Made by a program: the position numbers and the translations under genes. Source: a virus. From it: DNA of 41,194 nucleotides. The notes beneath the pieces are model-generated. The model worked only from the letters and a program-made list of their open reading frames with translations. It ran no database searches and was not told the origin of the DNA. Positions 5,584 through 29,822 of this stretch are shown piece after piece (the stretch's first letter is position 1; each line of letters begins with the position of its first letter). Location: the IMG/VR virus record IMGVR_UViG_3300050821_002495, positions 1-41,194 of that record, one strand, 5' to 3'.

Positions 5584-5622
5584 GGGGTAGCCGACACTAC
5601 CCCTGATTCTCTTGTCGGAGAG
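5584..5622 (+). promoter_or_regulatory. Candidate H-type pseudoknot over the RBS of the 5627 endonuclease
   Basis: Stem 1 is GGGGTAG (5584-5590) with CTACCCC (5597-5603). Its whole loop, CCGACA (5591-5596), is complementary to TGTCGG (5613-5618), which overlaps the GGAGAG ribosome binding site. A second element with the same design but different paired bases precedes the endonuclease at 29286. Pairing would hide the ribosome binding site. Confidence 0.7.
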
Positions 5623-5626
5623 AAAG

Positions 5627-6193
5627 ATGATAATTTATTTACTTCGTTGTACAGTTTCTGGAAAAGCATATATAGGTCAATCTATTCATTCTTTAGAAGA
5701 TAGGTGGAAGATTCATCTCAAAGATGCTAAAAGAGGTGCTCCATATATGCTACACAAAGCTATTCGTAAATATGGCCCGGAAGCTTTTGAGAAAACCGTT
5801 CTTCAAGAAGTCTCTGCGGTAGAAGAATTAAATACCTTGGAAATATACTATATTAAGACTCAAAATACCAAAGTCCCTTTCGGCTATAATATGACCGATG
5901 GTGGAGAGGGTCATAAAGGTCAAGAATTTAGTTTAGAACATAGACGTAAATTGAGCGAGTCCTTAATTGGAAACAAACACACTGCCGGTCATGTTTTAAC
6001 TGAGGAACATAAATCTAAAGTCAGTATTGCGCTTAAAGGAAAAACTCGTTCTGCCGAAGCTAGAGCAAACATGAGTATCGGTCAAAAAGGTAATCAAAAA
6101 TGGCTTGGTAGAAAACACTCTCCTGAGACCATAGAAAAATGTAGGATTGCCCGAACAAAGTATTGGGAAAGGAAAAAAACACTATGTCAATAG
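5627..6193 (+). CDS. GIY-YIG homing endonuclease with NUMOD3-type motifs (188 aa)
   Basis: The catalytic domain starts MIIYLLRCTVSGKAYIGQS, with IY at 3-4, YIG at 15-17 and the catalytic-type Arg in DRWKIHL near residue 26; HKAIRKYGPEAFE and the later FGYNMTDGGEGHKG are family hallmarks. The C-terminal part repeats S.EHRRKLSESLIGNKH and LTEEHKSKVSIALKGK, typical NUMOD3-like DNA-binding modules. The ATG at 5627 fits GGAGAG at 5617; an in-frame TTG at 5612 lies inside the pseudoknot and is less likely. Free-standing, inserted after the jelly-roll gene. Its target is probably a homologous locus in related phages. Confidence 0.9.
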   Translation: MIIYLLRCTVSGKAYIGQSIHSLEDRWKIHLKDAKRGAPYMLHKAIRKYGPEAFEKTVLQEVSAVEELNTLEIYYIKTQNTKVPFGYNMTDGGEGHKGQEFSLEHRRKLSESLIGNKHTAGHVLTEEHKSKVSIALKGKTRSAEARANMSIGQKGNQKWLGRKHSPETIEKCRIARTKYWERKKTLCQ

Positions 6194-6339
6194 TAATCGC
6201 TTTTGTTGTAGGAGTTTTCGGCGGAGGTTGGGCCGGATATTCTTATGGTTCTAAAGTACAGAAAGCAGTAGAAGCTAAAGTCGCATCCGTTGCGGGTTCG
6301 GTAGCTGCTTCTGCTAGTTCTGTAGCAAAGAAAGTCTAA
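6184..6339 (+). CDS. Small membrane-anchored protein, 51 aa
   Basis: MSIVIAFVVGVFGGGWAGYS is one glycine-rich membrane helix, followed by an Ala/Ser/Val/Lys-rich helix (KVQKAVEAKVASVAGSVAAS). The start overlaps the endonuclease end by 10 nt. The layout of a short helix plus an amphipathic lysine-containing tail is seen in small phage membrane proteins. Function unknown. Confidence 0.6.
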   Translation: MSIVIAFVVGVFGGGWAGYSYGSKVQKAVEAKVASVAGSVAASASSVAKKV

Positions 6340-6345
6340 CTAATT

Positions 6346-6360
6346 GTCCGGTTTCCGGAC
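6346..6360 (+). repeat. 15-bp palindrome GTCCGGTTTCCGGAC, copy 2
   Basis: Lies 7 nt after the stop of the 51-aa gene and 3 nt before tRNA-Gly. The 6-bp stem with a TTT loop could end the upstream message or guide processing of the tRNA transcript. Confidence 0.85.
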
Positions 6361-6362
6361 AT

Positions 6363-6439
6363 GCGAGGCTAGTGTTTAAAAGCCAGCACACCGGTCTTCC
6401 AAACCGGTAGTATCGGTGCAACTCCGATGCTTCGCTCCA
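6363..6439 (+). tRNA. tRNA-Gly (TCC), CCA encoded
   Basis: The acceptor GCGAGGC pairs with GCTTCGC (one G-U). The anticodon arm is CCGGT-CTTCCAA-ACCGG, giving TCC, which reads GGA. The T arm is ATCGG-TGCAACT-CCGAT, and CCA is encoded at 6437-6439. The D stem GTGT/GCAC contains one wobble pair. All arms are intact. Confidence 0.88.
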
Positions 6440-6444
6440 TTTAA

Positions 6445-6518
6445 GGAGTCGTCGTCTAGTGACAAGACGCTCGACTGTCGCTCGAAGAACGAGGGTTTGA
6501 TTCCCTTCGACTCCGCCA
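6445..6518 (+). tRNA. tRNA-Asp (GTC), CCA encoded
   Basis: The acceptor GGAGTCG pairs with CGACTCC, followed by discriminator G and encoded CCA. The D arm is GTCT-AGTGACA-AGAC. The anticodon loop CTGTCGC gives GTC. The T arm is GAGGG-TTTGATT-CCCTT. The outermost anticodon-stem pair is a mismatch (C-A). It follows tRNA-Gly by 5 nt, so the two are probably cut from one transcript. Confidence 0.88.
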
Positions 6519-6530
6519 TTTTGGTGTTAA

Positions 6531-6929
6531 ATGAAAATCCCATACTGGAAACTCGCCTTCGGTCCAGCCATACTATTTGTTCTCGGGTTTTTAATGAATG
6601 CAATAGTAGTAGCCGACAACAGCGGGACTATGCCTGTCCTAGTTCATAACTGCACCCAAGAATTAATGGGCGAAGATGATGACCTTCATGTGTGTATGGG
6701 CGAGGAAGCTCATCTTAAAATCCTGGCAGACTGGATACTGTGGAATCACGTAGGGGTTTTTAGTCCCGGTGATTTTTTGGAGATAGCAGGAGAGCTAACC
6801 TTTAACCCGTTTTTAATAGCGTGGCTAGCGTTCGTAATAAGAGATTATAACCGTAGAGGAATAGATGGCGGTAGAACACATTCTTGGTGGGAAAGAAAAC
6901 AAACAACTAGAACGCCCTATCCTGATTGA
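6531..6929 (+). CDS. Two-helix membrane protein, DUF5317-like (132 aa)
   Basis: The N-terminal helix LAFGPAILFVLGFLMNAIVV is followed by NSGTMPVLVHNC, a cysteine-containing loop, VFSPGDFLEIAG and a second hydrophobic helix near FLIAWLAFVIRDY. The N.G.MPV and SPGD blocks recall the DUF5317 membrane family. It starts 12 nt after tRNA-Asp without an obvious ribosome binding site. Its 3' end overlaps the next gene by 65 nt. Function unknown. Confidence 0.6.
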   Translation: MKIPYWKLAFGPAILFVLGFLMNAIVVADNSGTMPVLVHNCTQELMGEDDDLHVCMGEEAHLKILADWILWNHVGVFSPGDFLEIAGELTFNPFLIAWLAFVIRDYNRRGIDGGRTHSWWERKQTTRTPYPD

Positions 6930-7464
6930 CCCGGTTGATGATGAAGGATATTTTCTATTACCCGAAGAATTTAGTCCTAAAGATGAAGTAAGATGGGCTA
7001 AACGCCGTCAGGATTCTATTCGTGTCGCCCAGTATGCGGATTCTAAGTGCGGGCTTCCTAATACCTATGACCCCGAAGGCGCTTATTTATGCGGTGGGTG
7101 TGGAGACGGCAGTTCGAAACCTTGTAACAAACTAGTAATTGAAAATAGTGAATGCTTAATTCGCATAGCTCCTATAAATAAACCCGACCTACAAAGTTGT
7201 GGCTATTGGGAGATACAAAACGCAGGAGACCCCGAGGGTCGATACTGCGATAAAGGAAAGTTAGAAGACGACCGTATAGGGTTTGGTGAAACCGAAAACC
7301 CCAAAGGATTTGGCTGCATAAGATGTGAATATGGTCAGCAAGGAATGCCCCGTCCTGATAGCGAAGGTCGTACTCTGTGGTGTAAGAAAAAAGGACACCC
7401 GGTAGAAGAAAACGCCTGCTGTGAAGATAACGAACCTCTAGAAAATGAAGAGAGCGAAGAATAG
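6865..7464 (+). CDS. Cysteine-rich protein, 199 aa
   Basis: AGAGGAATAG precedes the ATG. The central part carries many cysteines in pairs (CGLPN, CGGCGDGSSKPC, CLIRIA, CGYWE, YCDKG, CIRCEYG, WCKKKG, ACCED), suggesting several metal sites or disulfides. The ends are acidic. The spacing recalls small iron-sulfur or zinc proteins seen near phage structural genes, but no exact family can be named. It overlaps the membrane protein before it by 65 nt and abuts the next gene through TAGTG. Confidence 0.7.
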   Translation: MAVEHILGGKENKQLERPILIDPVDDEGYFLLPEEFSPKDEVRWAKRRQDSIRVAQYADSKCGLPNTYDPEGAYLCGGCGDGSSKPCNKLVIENSECLIRIAPINKPDLQSCGYWEIQNAGDPEGRYCDKGKLEDDRIGFGETENPKGFGCIRCEYGQQGMPRPDSEGRTLWCKKKGHPVEENACCEDNEPLENEESEE

Positions 7465-7913
7465 TGAGAGCGGACCAACTAATCTATCACCAAGGAATGT
7501 GGCGGGCCGAAGTCGGTGGTAAGCACTATTGCGCTCAAACCAAAGAACTTCTAAAACTCGGCTTAAAGCATGTAGGTATCTCAGTAAGTGAACCACAGTA
7601 TATCGAGTTTGATGACCGTACTCCAACCGAAGTTTATATAGACGTGCTTCGTAGCCCTGAATCTCCTCTACTAGTTAAACAAGAAACCCTGATACGTTTG
7701 TTTACGTTAGCTAATCAGGGCGACCCACTAGCCGAAGAACTCGTAAATGCCATTCCTACTGACCGGTCGTTTGATGCTCAGTACTATACTAAACAAATAG
7801 GTAAAACTGATTTTCTATTTGTGGGCGTTGCCGAACTACATGAGTACGTAGATAACATAGTGCTACGGTCTAAGCTTATAACAGAGCTTGGCAATTTATA
7901 TAAGAGAATCTAA
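7464..7913 (+). CDS. Hypothetical protein, 149 aa
   Basis: GTG start overlapping the preceding stop (TAGTG), implying coupled translation. The sequence MRADQLIYHQGMWRAEVGGK begins a mixed alpha/beta protein with a C-terminal helix (LRSKLITELGNLYKRI). No known motif. It lies between the Cys-rich gene and the first fibre-like gene. Confidence 0.6.
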   Translation: MRADQLIYHQGMWRAEVGGKHYCAQTKELLKLGLKHVGISVSEPQYIEFDDRTPTEVYIDVLRSPESPLLVKQETLIRLFTLANQGDPLAEELVNAIPTDRSFDAQYYTKQIGKTDFLFVGVAELHEYVDNIVLRSKLITELGNLYKRI

Positions 7914-7915
7914 AG

Positions 7916-8557
7916 ATGCCAATAGGACCGTCAAATGCACTTGCCCCGTATATAGGCCCCGGAGGGTTAATAGTAGTTATTGACCCCGCAGTTATCATTA
8001 GTAATAACGTACTAAATGTGCTTCCTCAAACTAATGTAATAGTAGCTCCCAACACTACTAATTTTATTTTCTATAACGCGGTGTCTAACGCAATTCAAGT
8101 TAATACCTCCGGTTTTCCTAGTCAAGTTATTCCTATCGCTACCGCCACTACATCTATGAATGGCAACATGGTTCTTCTTGATAATAGACCAGATTTCACT
8201 ATTATCAGTCTTCCTACTGCTTTAGTTAACGCTCCGGGTACTTCGCTAACAACAGGTAATTTTTCATTTTCCGGATGGGGAACCGGAGCCAGTCTAGTAG
8301 TTAATTCCGGCACTCAAACCGGATTTTCGATTACTATAACCGCCGGTACTAGTCCTAGTCAACGTCCCACTATCACCCTAACTTTTAATACGTCTTATTC
8401 AAATGCTCCTATCACGATAGCTCAAGTCAATGGTGGAACCGGAATGGTAACTGATATTACTGCTGCTAACACTACTACTCAATCAGTCATGACCTATGAC
8501 GGTCTTCCAGTAAATACAAAAACATATACTATACAGGTTTTTACCCTTGGTCAATAA
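7916..8557 (+). CDS. Fibre-like beta protein, 213 aa
   Basis: Thr/Asn/Ser/Val-rich with alternating hydrophobic residues throughout (for example FTIISLPTALVNAPGTSLTT), as in phage tail-fibre or receptor-binding beta structures. No signal peptide, unlike the next four genes. Ends overlapping the TTG start of the 1869-aa gene by 11 nt. A virion surface role is inferred from composition and position. Confidence 0.6.
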   Translation: MPIGPSNALAPYIGPGGLIVVIDPAVIISNNVLNVLPQTNVIVAPNTTNFIFYNAVSNAIQVNTSGFPSQVIPIATATTSMNGNMVLLDNRPDFTIISLPTALVNAPGTSLTTGNFSFSGWGTGASLVVNSGTQTGFSITITAGTSPSQRPTITLTFNTSYSNAPITIAQVNGGTGMVTDITAANTTTQSVMTYDGLPVNTKTYTIQVFTLGQ

Positions 8558-11500
8558 ATTCATAAAATTTATATTTGGGTTGGCATTACTACTCGGGATA
8601 ACCCTGCCTACTCGTGGCCAAACCAGTTTAACAGGCCGTATAGTAGAAGACGTAGCGGCTAATCGTCCCACTACTTGCACGACCGGCGATGTTTATGTAG
8701 ATACAGATGATGCCAATAGTTGGAGATGCTTTCCTAATAATGTTTGGGTTAGTTTCGGTGGCGGTTTAGTAAGTCCGATTACTGCTCCTAATCCTTTACA
8801 GTTTAATGTCGATTTAATATTTAAAGGTCCTAATCCTGCGTATGATGCTCGTGTTTCAGGCGTTCGGTCAGTTAGTGTTGGTTCGGTACCGGCTATCCCC
8901 GGAACTACCGTATCTATTAATGCCGGTTCTGCTTCCGCTATAATTTCTAGTTCTTCTGGTTTTCAAACCGGAGACGGCGTTGTTATTTATGGTGCGGGCG
9001 TCACTAATCCTATTTCAACCCCTTCCTCCCCGACTGTTACTCCTGTTAATGCAGTTGGCCTGACCGGCACACTGTTAGACACCGCCAGTCCTAGTGGTTC
9101 TACTACCTATCAATATTGTGTAGCAGCCTGGGGCGGACCTGTCGGCCAAGCAGTTACGGCCTGCAGTGCTAATACTAGTATAAGTACGGGTCAGGCGTCT
9201 CTAGGACCGCAAAGTGTTTCGATTACTTCAATCGCTAACTCTAATGGTACTTTTTCAATCGTAACATCTTCTGCCCACACAGTTGCGGTGGGTGCTTTAG
9301 TGCAAATACGAGGGGCGCTCCCGGCAAATTTTAACGGATATTTTCGTGTATTAACTGCTGTAGATAACACCCATCTAACCGTAAGTACTTCTTACGATAC
9401 CCGAAACGGAGCTTTGGTTGCGCCAACCACGGCAGGCACTTTGACTTGGTGGAATTCTAATAGAATTACAGTCGCCGCCGCTACAGGTTCTAGCAACGGT
9501 ACTAAGTACCTAGTATACGGCCGTACCTCTGGTTCTATGACTTTGCTCGGAGTGATGTGGCCACAAAACTCTAATTTTAACACCGACCCCACATATCTCG
9601 CTTTTGATGATTACGGACCTACTTTTACTGTTGCGCCAAACCTGCCGTTTTATATTTCATCTTCCCCTCCTGTTTCCTCTACAAATGACTCTTTAGTTAC
9701 TACCATTGTTTCTGGACTACCGAGCACCACGATTATCTTAGCTGCTACAGCTAGTAATTCGGTGTCTGGTGCTACAATTCTATTCGACGACGGCGTAACA
9801 CTAGCTGCCGCATCTCTAGCCGCTAAAAACGAAGGAGCCAAATTAGTACTTCCGGCTGGAGGTACATATCCTATTAACTCGCCAACAACACTCGCTAATA
9901 GCGGAGAGCTGGATTACTATGGCGGATTAAACCTAAACGAAACTTTAAATATTAGTACGAATACGGTTTCCGGACAATATATCCCAAACGGTTCAGCAGC
10001 ATCGTTTGGATTGAACCCCTCCCCGGTGATAAATGTACTTCGCGGTTGGCCCGGATTATACGCCACTAATAACGTCTATCTTCACTATTTAACTATTAGT
10101 AGTGGCGAGTCAGCAAATTTATTTATGCAAGACGGTGGTACCGGTCAAATTCCGGCCAGTACTTTTGACCGTACACAGTGGACTCTTAGTGGTAACGGGT
10201 ATACTAGTACCGCACAAGTATTTCGTACTAACCATACGAACTCTTTTGCGGATATTTTTTATAGTGGTACACTTCTTACAGCCGGTCAATTAGGTTCCGG
10301 TTCCATGTCCACACCTGGAATTTTTTGGAGTGGGCCGGGAAATCCGGTAATGCGAGATACTTTCCTAAGCGGTAAAGGTATGCTGCTTCGTCCTGCGGTA
10401 TCGGGTTCGACCTACGTAATGGACTGGGTTTATAGTCAAGCTAACTACATGCCGTACTTATCAGTTATTGGCGTGGATGGAGGCGGAGTAGGAATAACCG
10501 GAAGAATCAACACCGTTTTATTTGACACTACACAGGCACCGCTAATAGCGAATCTTGGCGGGGTCATTCTCTCCTTAGTGACCGATAGTATTCCAAGTCA
10601 AACATTGATTTCTTCTCCTAATAGCGACACCTCTATCGTAGGTCCACCCGTAGGAAGTCTTGGAACCAATGTTAGTACGATATCAAACGAGCCGACTTTT
10701 TTTTCTGTGAACGATGGAACGTTTAATGCGGGGGTTATTCAGGCTAATCAAGTAACACCACAGTATCCAATTAATTCTTTTGTTCCAATTGGGCCAGCCT
10801 TTGCAGTATTTGTTGAAGACCTTCCAGGAACTGCCCCTACTTGTTCTGTAGTCAATAGTGGCACTTTCTTTCCGTCGGCGGGCACATGGTTTTTTGAATA
10901 TGCATATAAATACGCTAATGGAGGAATGGGAACTCCTTCGTTTCCGAGTACCGGTTGTACTGTTAACGGGACTAGCCAGGATATAAACGTAGTTTTACCG
11001 ACAGCTCCTGCTACTATTGGTTTAGGCGCGTATATTATGGCGGCAAACGCGGCTAATGGACCTTACTTTTATATTGGAGGGTCAGACCCGACAACCCAAG
11101 GAGCCGCTTGGAATGCGTCAACTAACACGTATTTATTTTCAGGTTTTGCGTCTATTCCGTCTCCTACATCAGCAGGTTCAGGACCGTCAGGGATAAGTAG
11201 TGGTTTAATCTGGGGTAAAGTGGTTTCTATAGGCTCAAGTACCATTAGTGCCCCGAATAATACAGTTCCCCGCAATTTAACTCTTCCCGATACTTCTGGC
11301 ACCGTCGGGATTATGACTGGTTCTTTCACCAATGCTCACTGTTTACAGGCTAGTGTTATTGGAGGAGTTCTATCAATAGCAGATACTGGCGCTACTTGCG
11401 GAAGTGGCGGCGGTGGCGCTACCTTTCAGGTTAATGGCACTAATACTAGTAGCCAAACTACTATAAATTTTCAAAGTGCTGCTACCTTTAATGGTATAAC

Positions 11501-18823: not shown

Positions 18824-18840
18824 TTTAAAGGAGTACTTCC

Positions 18841-19221: not shown

Positions 19222-19230
19222 AGGACTTAT

Positions 19231-19506: not shown

Positions 19507-19769
19507 TGTCTAGGTTTAAAGCTGCCCGCCATGTTCTTGGCGGTAAATCTCGCAAGAAAATTCGTTCAGTTCGTGGTCGCCGAAAGATTAAGAAAACTGT
19601 GGATGAGTGGAAAGCGGGAACTCTGCATAGCGGGTCTAAGACAGGTCCTGTAGTTAAGTCACAGAAGCAAGCGGTCGCAATTTCGCTCTCGCAAGGTCGC
19701 AAGCACGTAAGGAAGGGTAGTCCGGAAAATGAACACAATAGAACCAGCACCTCCGAAACAGGGGTGTAA
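19506..19769 (+). CDS. DUF6496-like basic protein (87 aa)
   Basis: Contains IKKTVDEWKAGTLHSGSKTG followed by PVVKSQKQAVAISLSQGRK, the hallmark block of the DUF6496 family of small basic phage and bacterial proteins. It ends SETGV, and the last codons overlap the acceptor stem of the downstream tRNA by 10 bp. A 15-bp repeat variant lies at 19720-19734 in the coding sequence. Confidence 0.75.
   Translation: MSRFKAARHVLGGKSRKKIRSVRGRRKIKKTVDEWKAGTLHSGSKTGPVVKSQKQAVAISLSQGRKHVRKGSPENEHNRTSTSETGV
19720..19734 (+). repeat. 15-bp repeat variant GTCCGGAAAATGAAC
   Basis: Same sequence as at 4427-4441. Both are coding and read as PEN(E). Confidence 0.6.
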
Positions 19770-19847
19770 GCCAGTAAATGGAAGCTGTCCGGTTTTGGAA
19801 ACCGGTGTCGCAAGACTTTAGAGGTTCGAGTCCTCTCACCCCTACCA
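19760..19847 (+). tRNA. Unusual tRNA: anticodon TGG (Pro) with long variable arm
   Basis: The acceptor AGGGGTG pairs perfectly with CACCCCT, followed by discriminator A and encoded CCA. The T arm AGAGG-TTCGAGT-CCTCT is perfect. The anticodon arm CCGGT-TTTGGAA-ACCGG fixes TGG, reading CCA (Pro). The variable region is about 14 nt and folds as GTC-GCAA-GAC, as in class II tRNAs (Leu, Ser, Tyr). The D stem is only 3 bp (AGC/GCT), and one extra base lies between the D and anticodon arms. The 5' end overlaps the previous CDS. Confidence 0.7.
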
Positions 19848-19851
19848 TCTT

Positions 19852-19926: not shown

Positions 19927-19941
19927 TCTTAAAGGCAGAAA

Positions 19942-22018: not shown

Positions 22019-22019
22019 T

Positions 22020-22247
22020 ATGGAACATGAAACGCCAGACAGTTTTATTGTGAACCCCCCAGTAGGAAACTCGAACTTAGAGTTCAGAGCGGAGTGCATA
22101 AAGTATGTGGAGCCGTACGTACGAGAAAACGGTATCCCACTCGACTGGAATAAATTTAATGCATTAGTTTTCGACGGTTCTTTAGAAGGAATTGTTTCAG
22201 GAGACCCTGAAGTAATAGAAAAATCTTTACATAAGATGAAAGAATAG
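22020..22247 (+). CDS. Hypothetical protein, 75 aa
   Basis: MEHETPDSFIVNPPVGNSNL starts just after the preceding stop, with AGGATAAT upstream. A mixed alpha/beta acidic protein with a C-terminal helix (PEVIEKSLHKMKE). Unknown function. Its TAG stop overlaps the likely AUA start of the next endonuclease. Confidence 0.6.
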   Translation: MEHETPDSFIVNPPVGNSNLEFRAECIKYVEPYVRENGIPLDWNKFNALVFDGSLEGIVSGDPEVIEKSLHKMKE

Positions 22248-22780
22248 TCTTTAAAATATATTTGGTTACTAACATTGTTAATGGCAAAGTCTATGTTGGC
22301 AAAACAGGTCAGACCATAGATGCTAGATGGAAAGAACATCTTAAATTGGCCAGACTAAACTATCCTTCTTACTTTTACAGAGCAATGAGAAAATATGGAC
22401 CGGATATGTTTAAGGTAAGAGAAATAGATTGTGTAGAGACCAACGAACTTGCTAACGTACGAGAAACTTACTGGATAACTCAAGTCTTCAAATCCCACTG
22501 TTCGGAAAACGGATATAATTCAACACTTGGTGGAGAGGGAGTTATAAGAAACGAAGAGTCAGAAAGAAAAAGAATAGATGCCCTACAAGGTAGAAAAGTT
22601 TCTGAGGAAACTAGAAGAAAAATTAGCGTTGCAAATTCAGGGAGAAAATTTTCTGATGAACACAGAAAGAAATTAAGTGATGCAAAATTAGGGGACAAAC
22701 ACCCTCTTTTTGGTAAGCATCATTCAGAAGAAACTCGTAAGAAGATGAGTAAAACTCACCTACGACGACAAGAGTTATAG
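22244..22780 (+). CDS. GIY-YIG homing endonuclease lacking a standard start codon (178 aa)
   Basis: The frame reads (ATA)-V-F-K-I-Y-L-V-T-N then NGKVYVGKTGQ, an almost exact counterpart of MFKIYLVHNLVNGKVYIGKT at 33549. The IY of the GIY strand lies upstream of the first ordinary start codon (TTG at 22262), so a useful protein must begin earlier; ATA at 22244, overlapping the previous TAG, is the only start-like codon. The rest is intact: DARWKEHL, RAMRKYGPDMF, GYNSTLGGEG and C-terminal NUMOD3-type repeats. Free-standing, after the terminase locus. Confidence 0.8.
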   Translation: MVFKIYLVTNIVNGKVYVGKTGQTIDARWKEHLKLARLNYPSYFYRAMRKYGPDMFKVREIDCVETNELANVRETYWITQVFKSHCSENGYNSTLGGEGVIRNEESERKRIDALQGRKVSEETRRKISVANSGRKFSDEHRKKLSDAKLGDKHPLFGKHHSEETRKKMSKTHLRRQEL

Positions 22781-22801
22781 TAAAATTCAAGGAGTAATAA
22801 T

Positions 22802-23440
22802 ATGAAAGTTGTTGCTGGAAAAGGTACGAAAGTAGACCCTAAGAAACCAAATCGGGCATGGGAAAATGAATCCTACGAGTTGGTTGAAAATGTAAACCAA
22901 GGTCCGGCTGGTGCTCGCAAAGGTAAAGTTATGGGTGGGCATAATCAGACCTCCGATAACATGGCTGAAAAGAACCAGTTAATCGGAATAGACGGTGCTA
23001 AACAAGACCCGTATCGCGCCGAAGGTTCTGACTGGCCTGACGGCAAAACTAGCGCTGACGCCGACCACGGTCAAGGTGGGGGGGCTACGTATGAAAACCC
23101 CAATGGCGGCGGCAAGAACGAGTTAGTTATCGATTCCGAGAATCAATGCGGGCCGCGTCACGTCGAAGATGATGGTTCTGGAGAACACGGTGCTGGTACA
23201 CCCGTACCCGGCAATCGCGCTGCCCGAGTTGCATCGAACTTTCCTATTGACTGGAATGATGGCGAAAGCCGTTCAGATGGCGGAGAAATAAGCATCTGGC
23301 AATCTGTTGACCTACAAACCGGTCATATCGTTGGTGGCGAACAAACCAGAGTTATGGATGTTCCTGATTTCAACGTTCACATACCGTCGGCTAAATCTGC
23401 CGGTTCTAAATCAGGCCGAGTAGCACGCGACCTAAAGTAA
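22802..23440 (+). CDS. Hydrophilic low-complexity protein (212 aa)
   Basis: AAGGAG precedes the ATG by 7 nt. Rich in Gly, Asp, Glu, Asn and Lys with few hydrophobic residues (GGATYENPNGGGKNELVIDS), predicted largely disordered until a C-terminal part with NFPIDWNDGE and VDLQTGHIVGGEQ. No family recognised. Its place between terminase and portal suggests a head or packaging accessory role, which is inference. Confidence 0.6.
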   Translation: MKVVAGKGTKVDPKKPNRAWENESYELVENVNQGPAGARKGKVMGGHNQTSDNMAEKNQLIGIDGAKQDPYRAEGSDWPDGKTSADADHGQGGGATYENPNGGGKNELVIDSENQCGPRHVEDDGSGEHGAGTPVPGNRAARVASNFPIDWNDGESRSDGGEISIWQSVDLQTGHIVGGEQTRVMDVPDFNVHIPSAKSAGSKSGRVARDLK

Positions 23441-23442
23441 TA

Positions 23443-23457
23443 GTCCGGAAACTGAAC
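23443..23457 (+). repeat. 15-bp repeat variant GTCCGGAAACTGAAC (intergenic)
   Basis: Two nt after a stop codon and before the portal gene's leader. Identical copies at 25774 and 33533 also directly follow stop codons. Confidence 0.75.
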
Positions 23458-23484
23458 ACTTAGAAGGGGCGGAGACAGCACAGA

Positions 23485-25557
23485 ATGTTACTGGATAAAC
23501 CGAGCGTAGACACCCACGCCCCTATTCTTTTGGACGAAGCCAAACAGGTAATGTCTACAGGAGTTTGGGGGGACGATGCCGCCCTCAAGCTTGTAATTAA
23601 AGATGCTATTACTGCCGAGAACTTCGAACAAACTAAGCAATGGGTAGCTCTTTGGCCGACTGCTACTATTCTTTACCAATCACCTTTTACTGCCCGTTAT
23701 TGGGAAGGTACTCAGGTAGAAAAAGCCAACATTCCATTTTTTACGGTTGCTACTGCCGTAAACTCGTTATCTCCTAAAATCTTGAACGGTCTTTTCTACG
23801 AAGACCCCCCGTTTATGATTCGTAAACGGCCAGGAACTACAGAAAATGCTACCCGAGCAGTAGGAGCTATTCTAGCATACCAACTCGAAGACATTGGTTT
23901 CAAAGAGACTCTTCGTCTCGGAGTTACTAATGCTATCCTATTTGGAACGGCTATATGGAAGTGGGGTTGGGAAACGTATACGGAAGAACGTACTGTCTAC
24001 AAACGTAAAACTCCTCCAGTAACTATTCCAAATGCTCCTGGTTTAGAAGACATACAAATTCACCCGGTCGATGAGGAAATCGAAGAAGAAGTAATCGAAG
24101 AGTATATCGACCGGCCTACTTTCGAACACATAGTAAATCTCCGCCACGTTCTGCCCGACCCCGGTCTTAATTTACCGGATATTAGAAAAGGTAAGTACGT
24201 AATCCACCGGATGTATCCGACTTGGAATGACTTAGACAAGTTACGCGACCGTCCTGGATTTAACATACCGTCTCGTGAGAAACTGCTTGAATTATTCTTT
24301 GCTCCTAAAGAAGTAGCCGAAGCTAACGCGGCGGAACTATCGGTTCAGAATCCACTATATGATTTAAGAGCAGCACCTCGTTACGAAGTCACTACAGAAG
24401 ACCCTTTTGCTCAACCACTAGAGTTACTAGAGCGTTGGGATAAAGACCGGTATATAGTAGTACTTAATAAAAAACTCGTAATTTGTAGTGACGAAAACCC
24501 ATACGGAGTGATTCCATTCCTATCCGTCAACTGGTGGGATGTACCAGAAGCTTTTTGGGGTATGGGTCTTGCGAAAACCATCGGTTCTGAGCAGAGACTC
24601 CAGCAAGGTATCACAAATGCTTGGCTAGATAACGTAGCGCTAAATCTTAATGGCGTCTACGTTCGTGTTATGGGTAAGGGCGTACCTACCCAAAGTATTC
24701 GCGTATCTCCGGGTAAAATCGTTAATGTTGATAACAAAGACGACTTCAAACCGCTGGATAGACTTCCTGCCGTGCCGGAAGCTGGCGCAGCCTTATCTAT
24801 ATCGCAAGCTAGAGCGGAGCAGGTGTCAGGAGCCAATGAGCCGGTTGTACAGGGCAGTATGGGCGGACCAAAGACAAGCATGGGACGCACTGCTACTGGC
24901 GCAAATCTTATTGCCGGTGGTTCGGACTCTCGAATCCAGGATTTTGTAGAGAAAATAGCCAATCAAGTTTTTATACCGTTTTTGTACCAAGCCCATATTC
25001 TTAATTGTGGATTATTACCCTTATCCACAGTCCGCCATATTCTTAACGACGAACTCGAACATGAGTACGTAAAAGAGAAACAAGGCGACATACTAGATAT
25101 CATTAATGCACGAGTTAAGTTCTCTATTGGTGCGGGTGCGCGTTTAGCTGCCCGTCGCAATATGGCCCAGTCCTTACCTTTGATTATGCAGTATCTAGCC
25201 AATCCCGAAGTAGTCCAGTCTTTGGCCGTCGAAGGTAAGAAAGTAGACCATGACGAGTTAATGGCGATGGTTTGGGAAGTTTCAGATTGGAGAAACTTCA
25301 GAGACGTAATCAAGCCTATGGATAAACAAGACATGCAGAGATGGCAGTTAATGCAACCGGGAGCCAAGGCTCAAGTACAACTCCAAGGTAAAGCCCAATT
25401 ACAACAACAGAAATTTGAACAAGAACAACAACTCCGGGAAGATGATAACTTCGGACGTGCTGGCCGTGAAATTCTACGGTCGGCCATAGAAAAGGCTGGA
25501 GAACCAGACGCGATAACCGGGGTTCCGGGTGGCGTCGGGTTCGGAAGTAACACATAA
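23485..25557 (+). CDS. Portal protein (690 aa)
   Basis: Forms the dodecameric DNA entry ring at one capsid vertex. Evidence is length, location just downstream of terminase, and typical segments: TARYWEGTQVEKANIPFFTV, an N-terminal helical wing, a mid part with VLPDPGLNLPDIRKGKYVIH, PFLSVNWWDVPEAFWGMGLA with TIGSEQRLQQGITNAWLDN, and a Gln-rich C-terminal coiled-coil barrel (QVQLQGKAQLQQQKFEQEQQ). GGAG lies 10 nt before the ATG. Matches the large portals of podoviruses. Ends TAATG, coupling it to the next gene. Confidence 0.88.
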   Translation: MLLDKPSVDTHAPILLDEAKQVMSTGVWGDDAALKLVIKDAITAENFEQTKQWVALWPTATILYQSPFTARYWEGTQVEKANIPFFTVATAVNSLSPKILNGLFYEDPPFMIRKRPGTTENATRAVGAILAYQLEDIGFKETLRLGVTNAILFGTAIWKWGWETYTEERTVYKRKTPPVTIPNAPGLEDIQIHPVDEEIEEEVIEEYIDRPTFEHIVNLRHVLPDPGLNLPDIRKGKYVIHRMYPTWNDLDKLRDRPGFNIPSREKLLELFFAPKEVAEANAAELSVQNPLYDLRAAPRYEVTTEDPFAQPLELLERWDKDRYIVVLNKKLVICSDENPYGVIPFLSVNWWDVPEAFWGMGLAKTIGSEQRLQQGITNAWLDNVALNLNGVYVRVMGKGVPTQSIRVSPGKIVNVDNKDDFKPLDRLPAVPEAGAALSISQARAEQVSGANEPVVQGSMGGPKTSMGRTATGANLIAGGSDSRIQDFVEKIANQVFIPFLYQAHILNCGLLPLSTVRHILNDELEHEYVKEKQGDILDIINARVKFSIGAGARLAARRNMAQSLPLIMQYLANPEVVQSLAVEGKKVDHDELMAMVWEVSDWRNFRDVIKPMDKQDMQRWQLMQPGAKAQVQLQGKAQLQQQKFEQEQQLREDDNFGRAGREILRSAIEKAGEPDAITGVPGGVGFGSNT

Positions 25558-25772
25558 TGAAAAGAATAATTGAAATAGTTAATGAACATGATGCATTCGA
25601 ATATTGTATAGATGGTTCTGGTCCTAAAATAGAAATTACAGAAGATACAACGGTTGTTTCGAATTCAGACCCGACACGTCCTATAAAAATAACAACCTTG
25701 CATAAATATCGTATACCAGAAGGTTACAAAGTTAGTATGTTTGAAATAGCGAAAACCGAAGTATATAAGTAA
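25557..25772 (+). CDS. Hypothetical protein, 71 aa
   Basis: ATG overlaps the portal stop (TAATG). MKRIIEIVNEHDAFEYCIDG continues into beta strands and ends EGYKVSMFEIAKTEVYK. Unknown function; small alpha/beta fold. Confidence 0.6.
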   Translation: MKRIIEIVNEHDAFEYCIDGSGPKIEITEDTTVVSNSDPTRPIKITTLHKYRIPEGYKVSMFEIAKTEVYK

Positions 25773-25773
25773 A

Positions 25774-25788
25774 GTCCGGAAACTGAAC
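25774..25788 (+). repeat. 15-bp repeat variant GTCCGGAAACTGAAC (intergenic)
   Basis: One nt after a stop. Its end also forms TGAAC-GCGAAAG-GTTCA, a hairpin running up to the start region of the next gene. Confidence 0.75.
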
Positions 25789-25804
25789 GCGAAAGGTTCA
25801 AGAG

Positions 25805-26173
25805 ATGCAATCAGAAGTAGCTTACAACCGTATTGAAAAAATGCGTGGGGAGGAACTAACCCCCGAAGAAAAATATGAGATAGACCAGTATTTTCGTGGT
25901 CGAGCGTTATCTCAAATAACCGTTACTGAAGGATACCAAGAAATTTTAAGTATGCTTCAAAGCTACGTAGTAGACGCGGTTGAAAAACTCGTAGCGGTGG
26001 ACCCGGCTGAAACCACAGAAGTACTGGCTTTTCACGCGGTAGCTTATGCAGCCAGTAAAATACACTCGAAGTTTCAACAAGATGTAAATGCGGCGGTTGA
26101 TGCATCAAGAACAACCCCGTCAGCTATTAAACAGTTTGCAAAAGCGGCCCCGGTACCCGCAGGAAGTTTGTAA
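25805..26173 (+). CDS. Helical hypothetical protein, 122 aa
   Basis: Mostly alpha-helical: EKMRGEELTPEEKYEIDQYF, then long helices through YQEILSMLQSYVVDAVEKLV and ASKIHSKFQQDVNAAVD. Lies between portal and scaffold, where head-completion or scaffold-related proteins are common. No defined family recognised. Confidence 0.6.
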   Translation: MQSEVAYNRIEKMRGEELTPEEKYEIDQYFRGRALSQITVTEGYQEILSMLQSYVVDAVEKLVAVDPAETTEVLAFHAVAYAASKIHSKFQQDVNAAVDASRTTPSAIKQFAKAAPVPAGSL

Positions 26174-26177
26174 CCGG

Positions 26178-26221
26178 AAATCCCGTAGTCGTTTCGGATT
26201 AAACGATACAAGGAGAATGAT
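26178..26221 (+). promoter_or_regulatory. Conserved leader with CGGATT-loop stem before the scaffold gene
   Basis: TCGTTT-CGGATT-AAACGA (26189-26206) is a 6-bp hairpin just upstream of AGGAGAATGA. AATCC (26179-26183) can also pair with GGATT in the loop, giving a pseudoknot. The same order, AAATCCCG / stem / CGGATT / stem / AGGAGAATGA, recurs at 32962-33000 with a different stem sequence. Confidence 0.6.
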
Positions 26222-27421
26222 ATGAGTGAACCACTCGCAGTAAATAGAACGCCCGTAGACCCGTTTAGTTTTGAAGACCCTCGATTTGCAGGGGTCGATA
26301 CAGCAGTGCGCAGAGAAGATTTACCGGTCGCAGACGATGACGGTTGGGAAGACCCTGGATTTCAAGCTACACAACGGGTTCCAGCTAGTAACCAATTTTT
26401 TAAAGACCTAAGCGATATCGCAGACGAGACTCCTGAAGTACAGGAAGTTCTCGATGCCGAAGTACTAGCAGCTACTCCTCCGCCTCCCGCTCCAGCGGTT
26501 GCCACAGTTGTAGTACCCGACCAACCTGAAGTTATCGAATATGACGATGGTTCCTCAGTCACCATAGAAAAGACAGCCAAGGGATGGAGCGCTACTTTAG
26601 ATAGTAATACATCTAGTGGCGTAGAAATCTTCCGTGGTAAAACCAAAGACGAAATGTGGCGTAATCTAGCGGCAGGCAAAATTAACGCTACCCGTAAGAT
26701 TAATTCACTGAATCGTCAGATTAAGTTGGGTCAACCCGAGGTTTCTCAGACTCAACCTGCCGCACCAAAAGTCCGGGAACTGACCGCCGACGAAGTGTTC
26801 GAGCTTAAAACTCAACTTCAGAATAACCCCGACCTAGCATTCCAAAGTTGGTTCCAAAAGAAAACCGGTAAAACTGTGGAACAACTAACCACTCTAGCTG
26901 AAAAAGGCGAAGAGGCTAACGAGAATCTTCGTCAGGAATATGAAGCTAAATCGTTTAGAGCTGAATATCCTGAATATTTTAATACTGACGAAAACTATCA
27001 GTCACTTCTAGCTTGGCTCAGAAAACACAAAAACCTAGATAAAGATATTTTACAGTTTAACGCAAAGAATTTAGGAGAAGCTTTTGAAGACCTATCCTCT
27101 GACGGATTGTTAGATGAAGCTCCGAAAGTAGCTCCAGTAAGACGAGCATCTGCACCACAACCTACCCCAGTAGCCGCTACCCCAGTTCCTGATGTTGTGC
27201 CTGCACCCGCTCCAGCGCCTGCTCCCGACCCACGGATTGTGGGAACGACAAAGCGGCGAGTACGTGGTAATTTCGGTATACCTCAGAGCGCTATTACCAA
27301 CGCTCAACCGGTCGCTGAAACCGCACCTACAGACGAAGAGTTGGATAATCTTTCTAACGATGAAATCAACCAGTTATTCTCTGGTGTTCGACGTTTAAGA
27401 GCACAATCCGCTCGGCGCTAA
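26222..27421 (+). CDS. Scaffold-like protein (399 aa)
   Basis: Directly precedes the capsid gene, as scaffolds do. The N-terminus is acidic and disordered. A middle domain (VIEYDDGSSVTIEKTAKGWS, EIFRGKTKDEMWRNLAAGKI) resembles a block often seen in phage scaffold-position proteins. Helical segments follow (LTADEVFELKTQLQNNPDLA, LAEKGEEANENLRQEYEAKS), then a Pro/Ala-rich hinge and a basic helical C-terminus (LFSGVRRLRAQSARR), which in scaffolds often contacts the coat protein. Confidence 0.7.
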   Translation: MSEPLAVNRTPVDPFSFEDPRFAGVDTAVRREDLPVADDDGWEDPGFQATQRVPASNQFFKDLSDIADETPEVQEVLDAEVLAATPPPPAPAVATVVVPDQPEVIEYDDGSSVTIEKTAKGWSATLDSNTSSGVEIFRGKTKDEMWRNLAAGKINATRKINSLNRQIKLGQPEVSQTQPAAPKVRELTADEVFELKTQLQNNPDLAFQSWFQKKTGKTVEQLTTLAEKGEEANENLRQEYEAKSFRAEYPEYFNTDENYQSLLAWLRKHKNLDKDILQFNAKNLGEAFEDLSSDGLLDEAPKVAPVRRASAPQPTPVAATPVPDVVPAPAPAPAPDPRIVGTTKRRVRGNFGIPQSAITNAQPVAETAPTDEELDNLSNDEINQLFSGVRRLRAQSARR

Positions 27422-27448
27422 GAACTAAACGACTCTAAAGAGAAATCT

Positions 27449-27574
27449 ATGAGTTATTCTCCCGCGAGTATTCAGACTTCCGGTGCGCTTCCTAACTTGG
27501 TTGCGATTTACTACGAACGTCAGAGTATTCCTAACCTGAAGGCCCAAACACCCTTCTTATCCATGACTATTTAA
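27449..27574 (+). CDS. Major capsid protein, segment 1
   Basis: MSYSPASIQTSGALPNLVAI continues to KAQTPFLSMT, a recognisable capsid N-arm of podovirus-like coat proteins. The frame then meets TAA after one more codon. AAAGAG precedes the ATG. Capsid coding resumes in the same frame at about 27611, so 27569-27610 is an interruption. Joining 27449-27568, 27611-27761 and 28425-29140 gives a 328-aa protein, a normal size for such coat proteins. Confidence 0.8.
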   Translation: MSYSPASIQTSGALPNLVAIYYERQSIPNLKAQTPFLSMTI

Positions 27575-27610
27575 GCTGCTTGGTCATGCAAACCGAAGTG
27601 GTAGATATTG
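27569..27610 (+). other. 42-nt in-frame interruption of the capsid gene
   Basis: Codons run ATT-TAA ... TGG-TAG-ATA-TTG, so two in-frame stops separate LSMT from KQKPLPLRSG. It contains a hairpin, CTTGGT (27579-27584) with ACC(G)AAG (27592-27598), around the loop CATGCAA. Imperfect 9-bp direct repeats flank it (TATTTAAGC at 27568, TATTGAAGC at 27606). It is too short for a group I intron. Exact limits are uncertain by a few codons. Confidence 0.6.
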
Positions 27611-27761
27611 AAGCAGAAACCACTTCCGCTACGGTCAGGAAATCAGATTCAATTTTTCACCTATGCTCTATTGGCGGCTAATACCAACCAAGCGGCAGAA
27701 GGTACTGTTGGGTCTCCAATTTCCGAAAGCTCCACTAAAATCATAGCGACAATTGGTCAGT
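27611..27761 (+). CDS. Major capsid protein, segment 2
   Basis: Encodes KQKPLPLRSGNQIQFFTYAL then NTNQAAEGTVGSPIS and ending STKIIATIGQ. The PLPLRSGNQIQFF.Y, EGTVG and T.GQYADF blocks are typical of N-arm/E-loop regions of podovirus-like coat proteins. The segment ends with the first base of a Tyr codon at the group I 5' splice site. If read on without splicing it hits a stop shortly after FKFGYIR. Confidence 0.82.
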
Positions 27762-28424
27762 TGAAATCATCGGCTGACTTTAAATTTGGCTATATCCGTT
27801 AACCCCTTATTAGCATCTAATATAAGAAGAGACGGAGGTAAGATTCCAATGGCTATTATAAGTAAAACGAAATGGGCATACGTCGCCGCAATGGTGGACG
27901 GAGAAGGTCACATTTCCATAGCAGGGACCAAATCAGGGCAAGGCTATAAAGGCAAACCCTATTGGTTAATAGATTGTAAGATTGGTATTTCAAACACTTC
28001 TGTGGAACTAATGAAGTGGCTAAAAGAGAATTTTGGCGGCGAATATCATGACGGTGGACAAGGTTCTAGAAGAATTTGTTATAGATGGAACCTTCAAAAC
28101 TACAAACAAATGGAAAAATTTGTTCTTGCAATCCTGCCTTATATGGTTATTAAGAGAAAACAGGCACTTTTAGCTCTTGAGTTTTTTCGTATGTTTGGGC
28201 AGAAAAACCCGGCTAAACGATTAGAACTAGCTAGAAGATGCCAAGCTCTTAATAGAGGAATAACCCCAGAGACTAATACGCCAAACCCGGTTTTAGAACC
28301 GGTGAAGATAGAGTCCGAACTTACTAGTGATAGTAAGAGTGCAGCAGTAGTGATACTGCCAGATAACGTCGATTTTAAAGTACGCTATCTTACCGCAGAA
28401 AACTCGGTAGCCTAAACACATTTG
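27762..28424 (+). mobile_element. Group I intron in the capsid gene
   Basis: Splicing after the U at 27761 and the G at 28424 restores GGT CAG T|AC GCT GAC, reading GQYADFINSSDLAM. P1 forms between exon GTCAGT (27756-27761) and GCTGAC (27773-27778), placing the required U-G pair at the splice site. P2 is a hairpin at 27806-27826. The R-like element CAGAGACTAATACG (28267-28280), P8 CCGGTT-TTAG-AACCGG (28287-28302) and the S-like GAAGATAGAGTCC (28304-28316) give P7. P9-type hairpins with GTGA loops follow (28320-28337 and near 28345). The last intron base is G. Confidence 0.85.
27849..28415 (+). CDS. LAGLIDADG homing endonuclease in the intron (188 aa)
   Basis: GGAGGT lies 10 nt before the ATG at 27849. 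A single LAGLIDADG motif, WAYVAAMVDGEGHISIAGTK (residues 9-28; metal-binding acids D17/E19), implies it acts as a homodimer. IGISNTSVELMKWLKENFGG and YRWNLQNYKQMEKFVLAILP are family-typical. Residues from about 136 onward are translated from the ribozyme core (R, P8, S and P9), so the tail is probably a by-product of overlap. It would cut intron-less capsid alleles near the GGTCAGT/ACGCTGAC junction. Confidence 0.88.
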   Translation: MAIISKTKWAYVAAMVDGEGHISIAGTKSGQGYKGKPYWLIDCKIGISNTSVELMKWLKENFGGEYHDGGQGSRRICYRWNLQNYKQMEKFVLAILPYMVIKRKQALLALEFFRMFGQKNPAKRLELARRCQALNRGITPETNTPNPVLEPVKIESELTSDSKSAAVVILPDNVDFKVRYLTAENSVA

Positions 28425-29140
28425 ACGCTGACTTTATTAACAGTTCCGACCTAGCTATGGACGTAGCGATTGACGACCCGTCGTTACTTCAGAACCTAGC
28501 AACCGAACTAAATTATCGCCTTGCTCTTACCCTCAACTCGCTCGTTCAGCTTACCTCTGACAGCGCGGTTGGTGTTGATGGCACGGTTAACATCCAGTTA
28601 GCAAACGGTTCATACCTTACTGCTAACAACCTCCGTACCGCTACTCAGCAATTGGCTGGCGTAAATGCCCGTCCACTTACTAAGGACGGTTACTGGGGCG
28701 GAATTATCCATCCGTTCGTTGTACACGACGTGCTAAACGACACGTCCGTCAATGGATTGACTGACATCCTAAAGCGCAACGGTGATTCAGCACAAAAACT
28801 ATTTGCGCCCCTGTCAAACGAGGAAGTTATCGAGTTCGCTGGCTGCCGTTTCAAACAGACCACGACCGCACCTTCCGTAACCATCTCCAGCAACACGTAC
28901 TACAATACGTATATTTATGCTGATGATGCCCTCTTTAGTGTCTTCCTTGGAAAAAATCCTGAGTCCGGTGAAAAGAACTACCGACTTATGATACAAGAAG
29001 CTCCTAGCCAGGGTTCAGTGAGCGACCCCGCACGACAGATAGGAGGTTGGGTTTCGTACAATGTTAAGTATACCAACACTCTTCGTCCCGGTTCCACTAT
29101 GGTTCTTCGACGCCTACAATCGGAAACTTCGAGTTCGTAG
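28425..29140 (+). CDS. Major capsid protein, segment 3
   Basis: Starts with the last two bases of the split Tyr codon and encodes ADFINSSDLAMDVAIDDPSL, LATELNYRLALTLNSLVQLT, YWGGIIHPFVVHDVLND and a C-terminus ending NVKYTNTLRPGSTMVLRR. These are HK97-fold coat-protein features: the spine-helix region with ELGYR-like LATELNYR, then HP.V..D in the A-domain. The coat gene is essential, so both interruptions must be bypassed for the phage to be viable. TAG stop at 29138. Confidence 0.88.
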
Positions 29141-29153
29141 GAGTAACCTTTTC

Positions 29154-29222
29154 CACTTAGTTAGCATCTAATTAAGTGCGGTTCAGTGCAGAGAAATCTG
29201 CGCTCCACTCTGGTCCCAGAGT
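29154..29222 (+). other. Structured RNA region after the capsid gene
   Basis: Three hairpins in a row: CACTTA(G)TTAG-CAT-CTAA(T)TAAGTG (29154-29178), GCAGA-GAAA-TCTGC and ACTCTGG-TC-CCAGAGT. The first shares the 11-mer TTAGCATCTAA with P2 of the capsid intron. Together with the pseudoknot that follows they form a highly structured leader for the 29286 endonuclease. It could include the capsid terminator, although no strong U-run is visible. Confidence 0.6.
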
Positions 29223-29239
29223 AATGGGCAACTGGAAAC

Positions 29240-29282
29240 GGGGGTGCCTCGAACACCCCCTATCCAACTCTTTCGAGGAGAG
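29240..29282 (+). promoter_or_regulatory. Candidate H-type pseudoknot over the RBS of the 29286 endonuclease
   Basis: Stem 1 is GGGGGTG (29240-29246) with CACCCCC (29254-29260). The complete loop CCTCGAA (29247-29253) is complementary to TTCGAGG (29272-29278), which overlaps GGAGAG. It has the same design as 5584-5622, with compensatory changes in both stems. Confidence 0.72.
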
Positions 29283-29285
29283 AAA

Positions 29286-29822
29286 ATGAAGTTTATTATT
29301 TATATTGTAAGAAACAAAATTAACAATAAGGTTTACGTTGGCAAAACATCTCAAAAACTCCGTCGCAGATGGTCCCATCATATCTCCCATGCTCCCGGCG
29401 ACCCGTATTACTTCCACAGAGCTATTTGTAAGTATGGCTCAGAGAACTTTGAAATATCTGAAATTGACTGCGCCGAAGAACTAACAACTGCAAATCAGCT
29501 AGAACAACAATATATACAAGAGTTTAAATCTTATAACCCCGAGTTTGGTTATAACAGTACGTTTGGCGGGGACGGGGTGCCTTGTACTCCCGAAGCAAAA
29601 GAAAAACACCGTCAATCAATGATTGGCAAACCCAAATCTATAGAATCTCGGCAAAAACAAAGTATTTCCGTAACAGGTGTAAACAACCCTCGTTATGGCT
29701 GTCCGGTTTCGGAAGAAACCCGTTTAAAGAGAAGTCTAAAATTAGCAGGCAGACCGAGACCTAAAGAAGTTATAGACAGAATCACATTAGCCAAGTTTCT
29801 TAAAACAGTAGCTTGGGGTTAA
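29286..29822 (+). CDS. GIY-YIG homing endonuclease (178 aa)
   Basis: MKFIIYIVRNKINNKVYVGK carries the GIY strand (IIYIV) and YVG, followed by RRRWSHHIS with the catalytic-type Arg, RAICKYGSENFE and GYNSTFGGDGVP. The C-terminus has NUMOD3-like segments (PEAKEKHRQSMIGKPKS, SEETRLKRSLKLAGRPRP). The ATG at 29286 fits GGAGAG; an upstream in-frame GTG at 29244 lies within the pseudoknot stem and would be structurally masked. Free-standing, just after the capsid gene. Confidence 0.9.
   Translation: MKFIIYIVRNKINNKVYVGKTSQKLRRRWSHHISHAPGDPYYFHRAICKYGSENFEISEIDCAEELTTANQLEQQYIQEFKSYNPEFGYNSTFGGDGVPCTPEAKEKHRQSMIGKPKSIESRQKQSISVTGVNNPRYGCPVSEETRLKRSLKLAGRPRPKEVIDRITLAKFLKTVAWG

Follow-up and report, generated by a model that had tools for sequence, protein, structure and literature searches.

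A window of 41,194 nucleotides (nt), the whole stretch of DNA that was analysed from the IMG/VR virus record IMGVR_UViG_3300050821_002495, holds two short leaders, each of which lies directly before a gene for a GIY-YIG endonuclease (Table 1). The window is part of the 94.9-kb environmental phage record G002, with which it agrees fully wherever the two were compared. Of the four GIY-YIG genes found in the window, two have the leader before them, and those near 22256 and 33549 do not. In both copies the complement of the loop of the first hairpin (H1) has CTCT on its 5' side and AGAG on its 3' side, which makes it the loop of a second hairpin (H2). The Shine–Dalgarno (SD) sequence GGAGAG is split in the same way in both, with GG in the H2 loop and AGAG in the H2 stem. 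H1 of copy 1 can be extended to 11-12 base pairs (bp), and H2 of copy 2 is weak when taken alone (predicted -2.5 kcal/mol). A related record, G001, has an identical copy 1 (locus L001) and therefore contributes no covariation.

Table 1. Leader elements and endonuclease genes of the window (aa, amino acids)
Feature	Position	Strand	Remarks
Copy 1, hairpin H1: GGGGTAG (5584-5590) / CTACCCC (5597-5603)	5584..5603	+	7 bp, direct reading
Copy 1, H1 loop CCGACA	5591-5596	+	6 nt
Copy 1, linker, 9 nt	5604-5612	+	
Copy 1, hairpin H2: TTCTCT / AGAGAA	5607..5624	+	direct reading, predicted fold; H2 covaries across the leader family
Copy 1, H2 loop TGTCGG, exact complement of the H1 loop	5613-5618	+	6/6 nt
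Copy 1, SD GGAGAG, within H2 and the loop-loop helix	5617..5622	+	direct reading
GIY-YIG / NUMOD3 endonuclease gene 1, 188 aa, ATG at 5627	5627..6193	+	matches GIY-YIG and NUMOD3
Copy 2, hairpin H1: GGGGGTG (29240-29246) / CACCCCC (29254-29260)	29240..29260	+	7 bp, direct reading
Copy 2, H1 loop CCTCGAA	29247-29253	+	7 nt
Copy 2, linker, 11 nt	29261-29271	+	
Copy 2, hairpin H2: CTCT / AGAG	29268..29282	+	direct reading; supported by covariation in the family
Copy 2, H2 loop TTCGAGG, exact complement of the H1 loop	29272-29278	+	7/7 nt
Copy 2, SD GGAGAG, within H2 and the loop-loop helix	29277..29282	+	direct reading
GIY-YIG / NUMOD3 endonuclease gene 2, 178 aa, ATG at 29286	29286..29822	+	matches GIY-YIG and NUMOD3

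Stems, loops, complements and linkers lie where the original prediction had put them, and both open reading frames (ORFs) whose ribosome binding site (RBS) it took to be covered are indeed of the GIY-YIG type; the family described below extends to endonuclease VII and HNH genes. Counted on both strands, 20 dinucleotide shuffles of the window contained the bare design, a stem of at least 7 bp with a complement of at least 6 nt to its loop close downstream, five times in all; the real window contains it twice, each time on an SD. When each leader was shuffled 200,000 times, H1 and the loop complement appeared together in 14 shuffles of copy 1 and 8 of copy 2. With H2 required as well, both counts fell to 0.

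A leader family with complementary loops

A scan for two hairpins with complementary loops over 233 partly overlapping loci (2.26 Mb; because loci overlap, base totals count some DNA repeatedly) yielded seven distinct elements that precede an ORF and have 6-7 nt loops, namely the two window copies, one element in L142, two in L146, and one each in L151 and L093. The sole other match with a loop of at least 6 nt, besides the mirror of copy 1, had no ORF. The genes behind the window copies and the L142 element are of the GIY-YIG type, and those in L151 and at 6293 in L146 match endonuclease families. The gene at 2495 in L146 had no family match; judged from sequence alone, it and the gene in L093 appear HNH-like. 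The L142 protein (P0005) is 58% identical to the product of the gene behind copy 2, and the stems and loops of its leader are altered with the pairs kept.

A DNA pattern in which some letters were fixed and the three central loop letters left free returned at least 119 stretches from IMG/VR; 118 loci were analysed, L352 being omitted there and counted only in the total given below. There are at least 97 distinct viral matches, and the central triplets are complementary in 86 of the 97 listed, in every case as part of a complete 7/7 loop. Permuting the second loops among the listed matches gave a mean of 4.5 and a maximum of 13 in 2000 runs, compared with the 86 observed. These 86 elements have at least five pairs in H1 and at least four in H2, and the 11 misses have 1-6 and 2-7, respectively.

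A covariance model (R1) was trained on 11 sequences from outside the window and describes H1 and H2, leaving the loop-loop helix unmodelled. Run over 87 loci, all selected for holding an element, it gave 119 matches, 89 of which fit the DNA pattern and 30 of which lie outside it. Two of these 30 were known before (L001, L151) and 28 were new. The loops are exactly complementary in 24 of the 28 (L278 and L308 being one sequence), the exceptions being L276, L312 (9145), L326 and L317, and this count is informative because R1 cannot ask for loop complementarity. The model also recovers copy 1 (5583-5630, 19.4 bits, E 4e-5) and copy 2 (29239-29289, 41.0 bits, E 9.8e-14). Both window leaders are, as these matches indicate, members of a wider phage RNA family.

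According to the original prediction, a lack of further examples in homologous leaders or of significant covariation would have refuted it; further examples and covariation were both found. The search of 542 sequences gave 126 distinct elements with fully complementary loops of 6-7 nt and an ORF, the window's two included; complementarity is a selection criterion for this total, and the unbiased counts are the 86 of 97 listed matches and the 24 of 28 new ones. The second loop ends in GG or AG in 123 of the 126, and 48 different loop sequences occur; in L388, L415 and L420 the SD is shifted into the stem. Clustering at 70% identity leaves 75 clusters among the 77 ORFs downstream of listed matches, so this set does not consist of a few copies repeated.

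Across the 119 R1 matches, which were fitted to H1 and H2 so that the pair counts for those helices lean that way, 98.6% of the cells are paired, compared with 75.1% in shuffled and 34.5-61.7% in slid controls. The loop-loop helix, absent from the collecting model, is 99.3% paired in the same matches, and six of its seven pairs have changed on both sides. Its three central pairs use all four Watson–Crick types among the 86 listed elements. In that set, the two H2 pairs for which the pattern allows Y/R never show C.A (0 of 172 cells), and among 123 elements each of the H2 pairs 0-3 occurs as more than one standard pair type. H2 has even changed beyond its usual letters, to CTAT/ATAG in L383 and to ATCT/AGAT in L513 and L530. 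Taken across the alignment, H1, H2 and the loop-loop helix all covary, and the structure is shown by covariation. At 430 H1 cells outside the pattern letters G.T occurs 31 times and A.C three times, which means that wobble is tolerated on one strand only and that the element acts as RNA. In 73 of the 99 elements with an ORF, 7-8 nt separate the GG at the loop end from the start codon, and a paired SD about 8 nt before the start is supported by prediction and by covariation.

No Rfam 15 family matched at the elements, either in the whole window at the gathering cut-off or in 12 element loci at E <= 1, and a search of both window leaders at E <= 10 met only microRNA or long non-coding RNA models, far below cut-off. 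In GTDB genomes, a stricter pattern found 13 stretches, within which the looser pattern matches 14 times. Complementary loops occur in 4 of these 14 matches, and in three of the four (on two contigs, L363 and L365) the design is complete and precedes an ORF. Among the remaining matches, five are one Microcystis sequence.

Genes behind the leaders, promoters and mobility

An ORF of at least 40 codons follows 77 of the 86 listed elements, and three of the nine elements without one lie at a contig end. In Pfam, these 77 ORFs gave 22 matches to endonuclease VII, 17 to GIY-YIG and 14 to NUMOD3; PHROGs adds HNH families. By blastp, 65 of the 77 fall into four clusters of 24, 18, 16 and 7 members, which represent the endonuclease VII, GIY-YIG and HNH families. 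The clusters were named from the family matches across the set and from a check of six doubtful members (L236, L243, L269, L277, L325 and L348), all of which match endonuclease families. Among the 12 singletons, endonuclease matches were obtained for four, L268, L285, L302 (PHROGs) and L322 (PD-(D/E)XK). L347 has a T5orf172 domain, which we take to be related to GIY-YIG, and L235, L276 and L284 are too short to assign. The leaders are tied to homing-type nuclease genes of at least three types, GIY-YIG, endonuclease VII and HNH.

Loci were also selected by protein, using queries built from leader-carrying genes and the best 80 loci for each. The leader was present at 19 of 66 GIY-YIG loci (one with a short upstream region was dropped) and at 18 of 71 endonuclease VII loci, fractions which, given this choice of queries, are not population rates. 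Twelve of these leaders were new, and control regions showed none (0/145). The prevalence at the pattern loci, 91/120, is biased by the selection of those loci.

The leader can move with its gene, as one block-like empty site illustrates. In L342 the flanks of the L237 cassette lie 10 nt apart (98% and 83% identity), and leader and gene are jointly absent. Where L256 has a longer gene, the leader of L248 is followed by an ORF of just 34 codons, and behind the two leaders of L266 the ORFs comprise 2 and 21 codons; both loci look like decayed cassettes. The element is a good marker for such short or decayed homing genes.

A strong sigma70-like promoter (at least 10 of 12 bases) lies within 90 nt upstream of H1 in 19 of 81 elements and in 1 of 243 control regions; for perfect palindromes of at least 10 nt within 40 nt, the corresponding counts are 25 of 81 and 4 of 243. 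The -10 box ends 4-54 nt before H1 in the 19 elements with a strong promoter, and 4-13 nt before it in nine of them. Since these promoters are upstream of H1, their transcripts carry most or all of the leader. Two types of upstream region recur among many of the elements. The first is a sigma70 promoter with a palindrome in its spacer (TTGACA..GTTGCAAC..TAAGAT), for example in L291, L313 and L326, and the second has the palindromes TTTTGTAGCTACA / TTTTGTACGTACA, for example in L254 and L325. The upstream palindromes are possible operators.

A proposed translational lock and its alternatives

As selfish genes, homing endonucleases may impose a cost on their phage. According to passages of a review (PMC2988022), the RBS of I-TevI, II, III, segB and mobE is hidden by RNA structure in T4 and Aeh1, from which late transcripts escape by virtue of late promoters. 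The same passages call the translational control of T4's remaining free-standing homing endonucleases not obvious (PMC2988022). In the phage leader the SD lies inside both the loop-loop helix and H2, so the simplest reading is a translational lock. We infer repression, and give a probability of about 0.78 to the view that the leader family is a cis-acting lock on the RBS of homing-endonuclease-type genes. H1 is a GC-rich hairpin with a 6-7 nt loop, and H2 a short hairpin whose loop is exactly complementary to that of H1. In the usual layout the GG of the SD ends the H2 loop and AGRR belongs to the H2 stem, with a distance to the start codon of 7-8 nt in most members. Together with the H2 stem, loop-loop pairing, either as kissing hairpins or as a pseudoknot with H2 open, would bury the RBS, and the endonuclease would be translated little, or only once the lock opens. 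In some copies, a sigma70-type promoter just upstream would place H1 near the 5' end of the messenger RNA (mRNA). Predicted energies for five elements are -6.5 to -9.0 kcal/mol for the loop-loop helix, -2.5 to -8.2 for H2 and -11.2 to -22.0 for H1, and SD:anti-SD pairing in the same five elements is predicted at -6.4 to -12.7 kcal/mol.

Several observations weigh against this reading. In two of the five elements, SD:anti-SD pairing (-12.4 and -12.7 kcal/mol) beats either H2 or the loop-loop duplex taken singly. If H1 is counted as 8 bp and H2 as 4 bp, the linker reaches at least 8 nt in only 25 of the 86 listed elements and is under 8 nt in 61. The leader also precedes genes for a primase-helicase (L239), a replication initiation protein (L330) and a terminase (L260), where core phage genes may have adopted it or a lost cassette may have left it behind, and the singleton L257 had no family match. 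The fractions among protein-selected loci mean that this leader is one optional kind and not general, and of 53 nuclease-like ORFs in the pieces analysed from G002-G039 it precedes only 5. A strong sigma70-like promoter was not seen within 90 nt upstream in 62 of 81 elements, nor in that distance before the window copies (8/12 and 7/12 bases). Among 96 loci related to the two window endonucleases, a loose scan by eye found no further copy before the matched genes. This apparent refutation was reversed once capsid-related contigs were scanned; among those first 96 loci the window copies were the only ones. A search with R1 over eight whole named phage records gave weak matches only (best E 0.0086) and no convincing copy. 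Moreover, blastn of three elements against named phages returned no match or short partial matches only, no SD-type copy was seen in named-phage regions or in loci around weak R1 matches, and no cultured carrier is known.

The short linkers make it doubtful, on a rough A-form length, that the three helices (H1, H2 and loop-loop) are stacked in line in the majority of members. By the same measure, a balance between two hairpins and a pseudoknot would be at least as likely as a stack of all helices. The H-type pseudoknot of the original prediction survives as loop-loop pairing and gives way, as a plain H-type fold, to kissing hairpins or two alternative folds, because H2 is conserved. A plain H-type pseudoknot was dropped as the whole story since H2 covaries, and stays one possible state.

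For the opening of the lock a two-state regulator may be considered, at odds clearly below even. The leader would exist either as H1 with H2 or as an H1 pseudoknot, and a shared factor, be it a host or phage protein, a ribosomal protein or a small molecule, would select the state, like S15 on rpsO. H2 and the loop-loop helix both covary, yet the linker looks too short for all helices in the 61 elements mentioned. The occurrence of one leader type across unrelated nuclease families suggests a common factor and not the gene's own product. In the rpsO case, S15 stabilises the pseudoknot and entraps the ribosome, according to the relevant passages of PMC10931766. However, no conserved unpaired, ligand-like core was seen and few letters are fixed outside the helices; furthermore, the SD is partly paired in either state, so the outputs may differ little. 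A tentative extension, which we rate as conceivable and would not yet bet on, is a modular mobile riboregulator in which one lock with many loop sequences serves homing endonucleases of unrelated folds and is opened by a common infection signal through the change between two hairpins and pseudoknot. If true, several nuclease superfamilies would share a phage RNA switch of a new class. Autoregulation by the endonuclease is disfavoured, because the leader is common to unrelated nucleases.

It is unlikely that the structure activates its gene, with the loop pairing giving the ribosome a preferred landing pad or protecting the message. A hairpin at the very 5' end is known to protect mRNA, and H1 would be near that end in the nine elements whose -10 box lies closest. 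Pseudoknots can bind ribosomal protein S1, as stated in passages of PMC10931766. Nevertheless, the SD letters are paired in both helices, and in the five elements the loop-loop duplex and H2 compete with SD:anti-SD pairing.

An element acting at the DNA level, with the nested inverted repeats serving as a cruciform or folded single strand in cassette movement, is very improbable. Leader and gene are jointly missing at the empty site in L342, and the design is symmetric under reverse complement, as the mirror matches reflect; the one-sided tolerance of wobble, the tight spacing to the start codon and the SD letters kept on one side speak against it. That only H1 matters, as an mRNA stabiliser or as the 3' end of the upstream gene, with the rest chance or a plain RBS, is hardly tenable, for although H1 is the most stable part in the five elements and capsid genes of relatives also have GC-rich hairpins after them, this cannot account for the exact 7/7 loops in 86 of 97 listed matches, is contradicted by the covariation of H2, and finds no U-run after H1 in the window copies. 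A terminator was rejected for the same lack of a U-run.

The proposed lock can be compared with several known systems. TAR/TAR* and ColE1 RNAI/RNAII form kissing complexes in which loops of 6 or 7 nt pair over their full length. The phage leader has the same trait in the 126 elements collected by that criterion, two hairpins with 6- or 7-nt loops that are mutually complementary throughout; however, the kissing complexes act between two RNAs, whereas here both loops are in one RNA and one of them holds the SD. In the RepZ leader of IncI/IncB plasmids, a hairpin-loop pairing adjoins the RBS. The RepZ pseudoknot is needed for translation, whereas the pairing in the phage leader takes in the SD itself. 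The E. coli rpsO and alpha-operon leaders also have a pseudoknot that takes in the RBS, according to passages of PMC10931766, and the phage leader likewise pairs a hairpin loop with sequence overlapping the SD. Those leaders bind S15 or S4, whereas the phage leader has all its loop bases paired and many different genes behind it, and a ligand would be only hypothetical.

In T4-type homing leaders, as described in passages of PMC2988022, and in the phage leader alike, RNA structure covers a good SD that lies about 8 nt ahead of the start codon of a homing gene. There a stable structure is escaped by late transcripts (PMC2988022), whereas here two hairpins are joined by a fully complementary loop-loop helix. 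Unlike the T4 type, the phage leader is common to unrelated nuclease families, and its promoters, where seen, lie upstream of the whole structure. As the strong promoters seen are upstream of H1, a T4-style escape would be closed to their transcripts, the promoter scan having covered the 90 nt before H1 and no starts within the leader. That RNA can hide the RBS of homing genes is known from T4; no description of this fold was found in open-access PMC text, and the fold and the breadth of its carriers appear new. A compact lock of this kind, some 50 nt long and placed ahead of three or more nuclease types in environmental phages, makes the question of control directly testable with reporters, and the 48 natural loop sequences are usable for synthetic RBS locks.

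Capsid-gene inserts and other features of the phage

The capsid protein of the window (P0004) has relatives at 35 loci in IMG/VR, its own included (34 others). Its single named relative is from Tunturiibacter phage Tunturi_3 (35% identity), the host of which is an acidobacterium according to the title of PMC11924767. The major capsid gene of the window contains a 42-nt insert with two in-frame stops (27569-27610). Small inserts were found in 5 of the 35 capsid loci, namely L117 (the window), L142 and L143 (51 nt, same site), and L145 (50 nt) and L147 (32 nt) at other sites. By reading, in the window and L142/L143 the end of the 5' exon pairs with the small insert as in the P1 helix of group I introns, the splice point being marked by U.G; L145 shows a P1-like pairing of exon and insert with one mismatch. 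The small insert ends in G in the window, L142/L143 and L145, again by reading, and all five capsid genes that have one also hold a large insert. A possible reading of the small insert is a mini-intron that lacks a core and is spliced by the ribozyme next to it. Alternatively, it could be a bypass like that of T4 gene 60, for which the take-off and landing codons mismatch.

The large insert of the window measures 663 nt (27762-28424, with ends placed by reading of P1 and the protein frame) and is a probable group I intron with an ORF. That ORF (27786-28415) matches HNH endonuclease PHROGs and is LAGLIDADG-like in appearance. The insert matches Rfam Intron_gpI at 30.3 bits (E 2.7e-5) and falls short of the gathering cut-off (50). 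GC-rich hairpins lie 3' of the capsid genes in many relatives (several of L118-L151), and in several of them a loop like CGGATTG recurs downstream, both as judged by eye.

The window also carries genes for the transfer RNAs (tRNAs) tRNA-Gly(tcc), tRNA-Asp(gtc) and tRNA-Pro(tgg), at 6363-6518 and 19760-19847. A dispersed repeat, TCCGGAAACTG, often followed by AAC, is present in 24 copies in record G002 (L109-L113), together with 10 copies of a hairpin-forming relative, TCCGGAAACCGGA. One repeat, at 33533-33550 of the window, directly precedes the GIY-YIG gene at 33549. These repeats are possible phage promoters or terminators. Finally, the minus strand of L234 (754-1055) encodes a likely bacterial-type RNase P RNA (80.5 bits, cut-off 100), which sits on a viral contig amid many tRNA genes.

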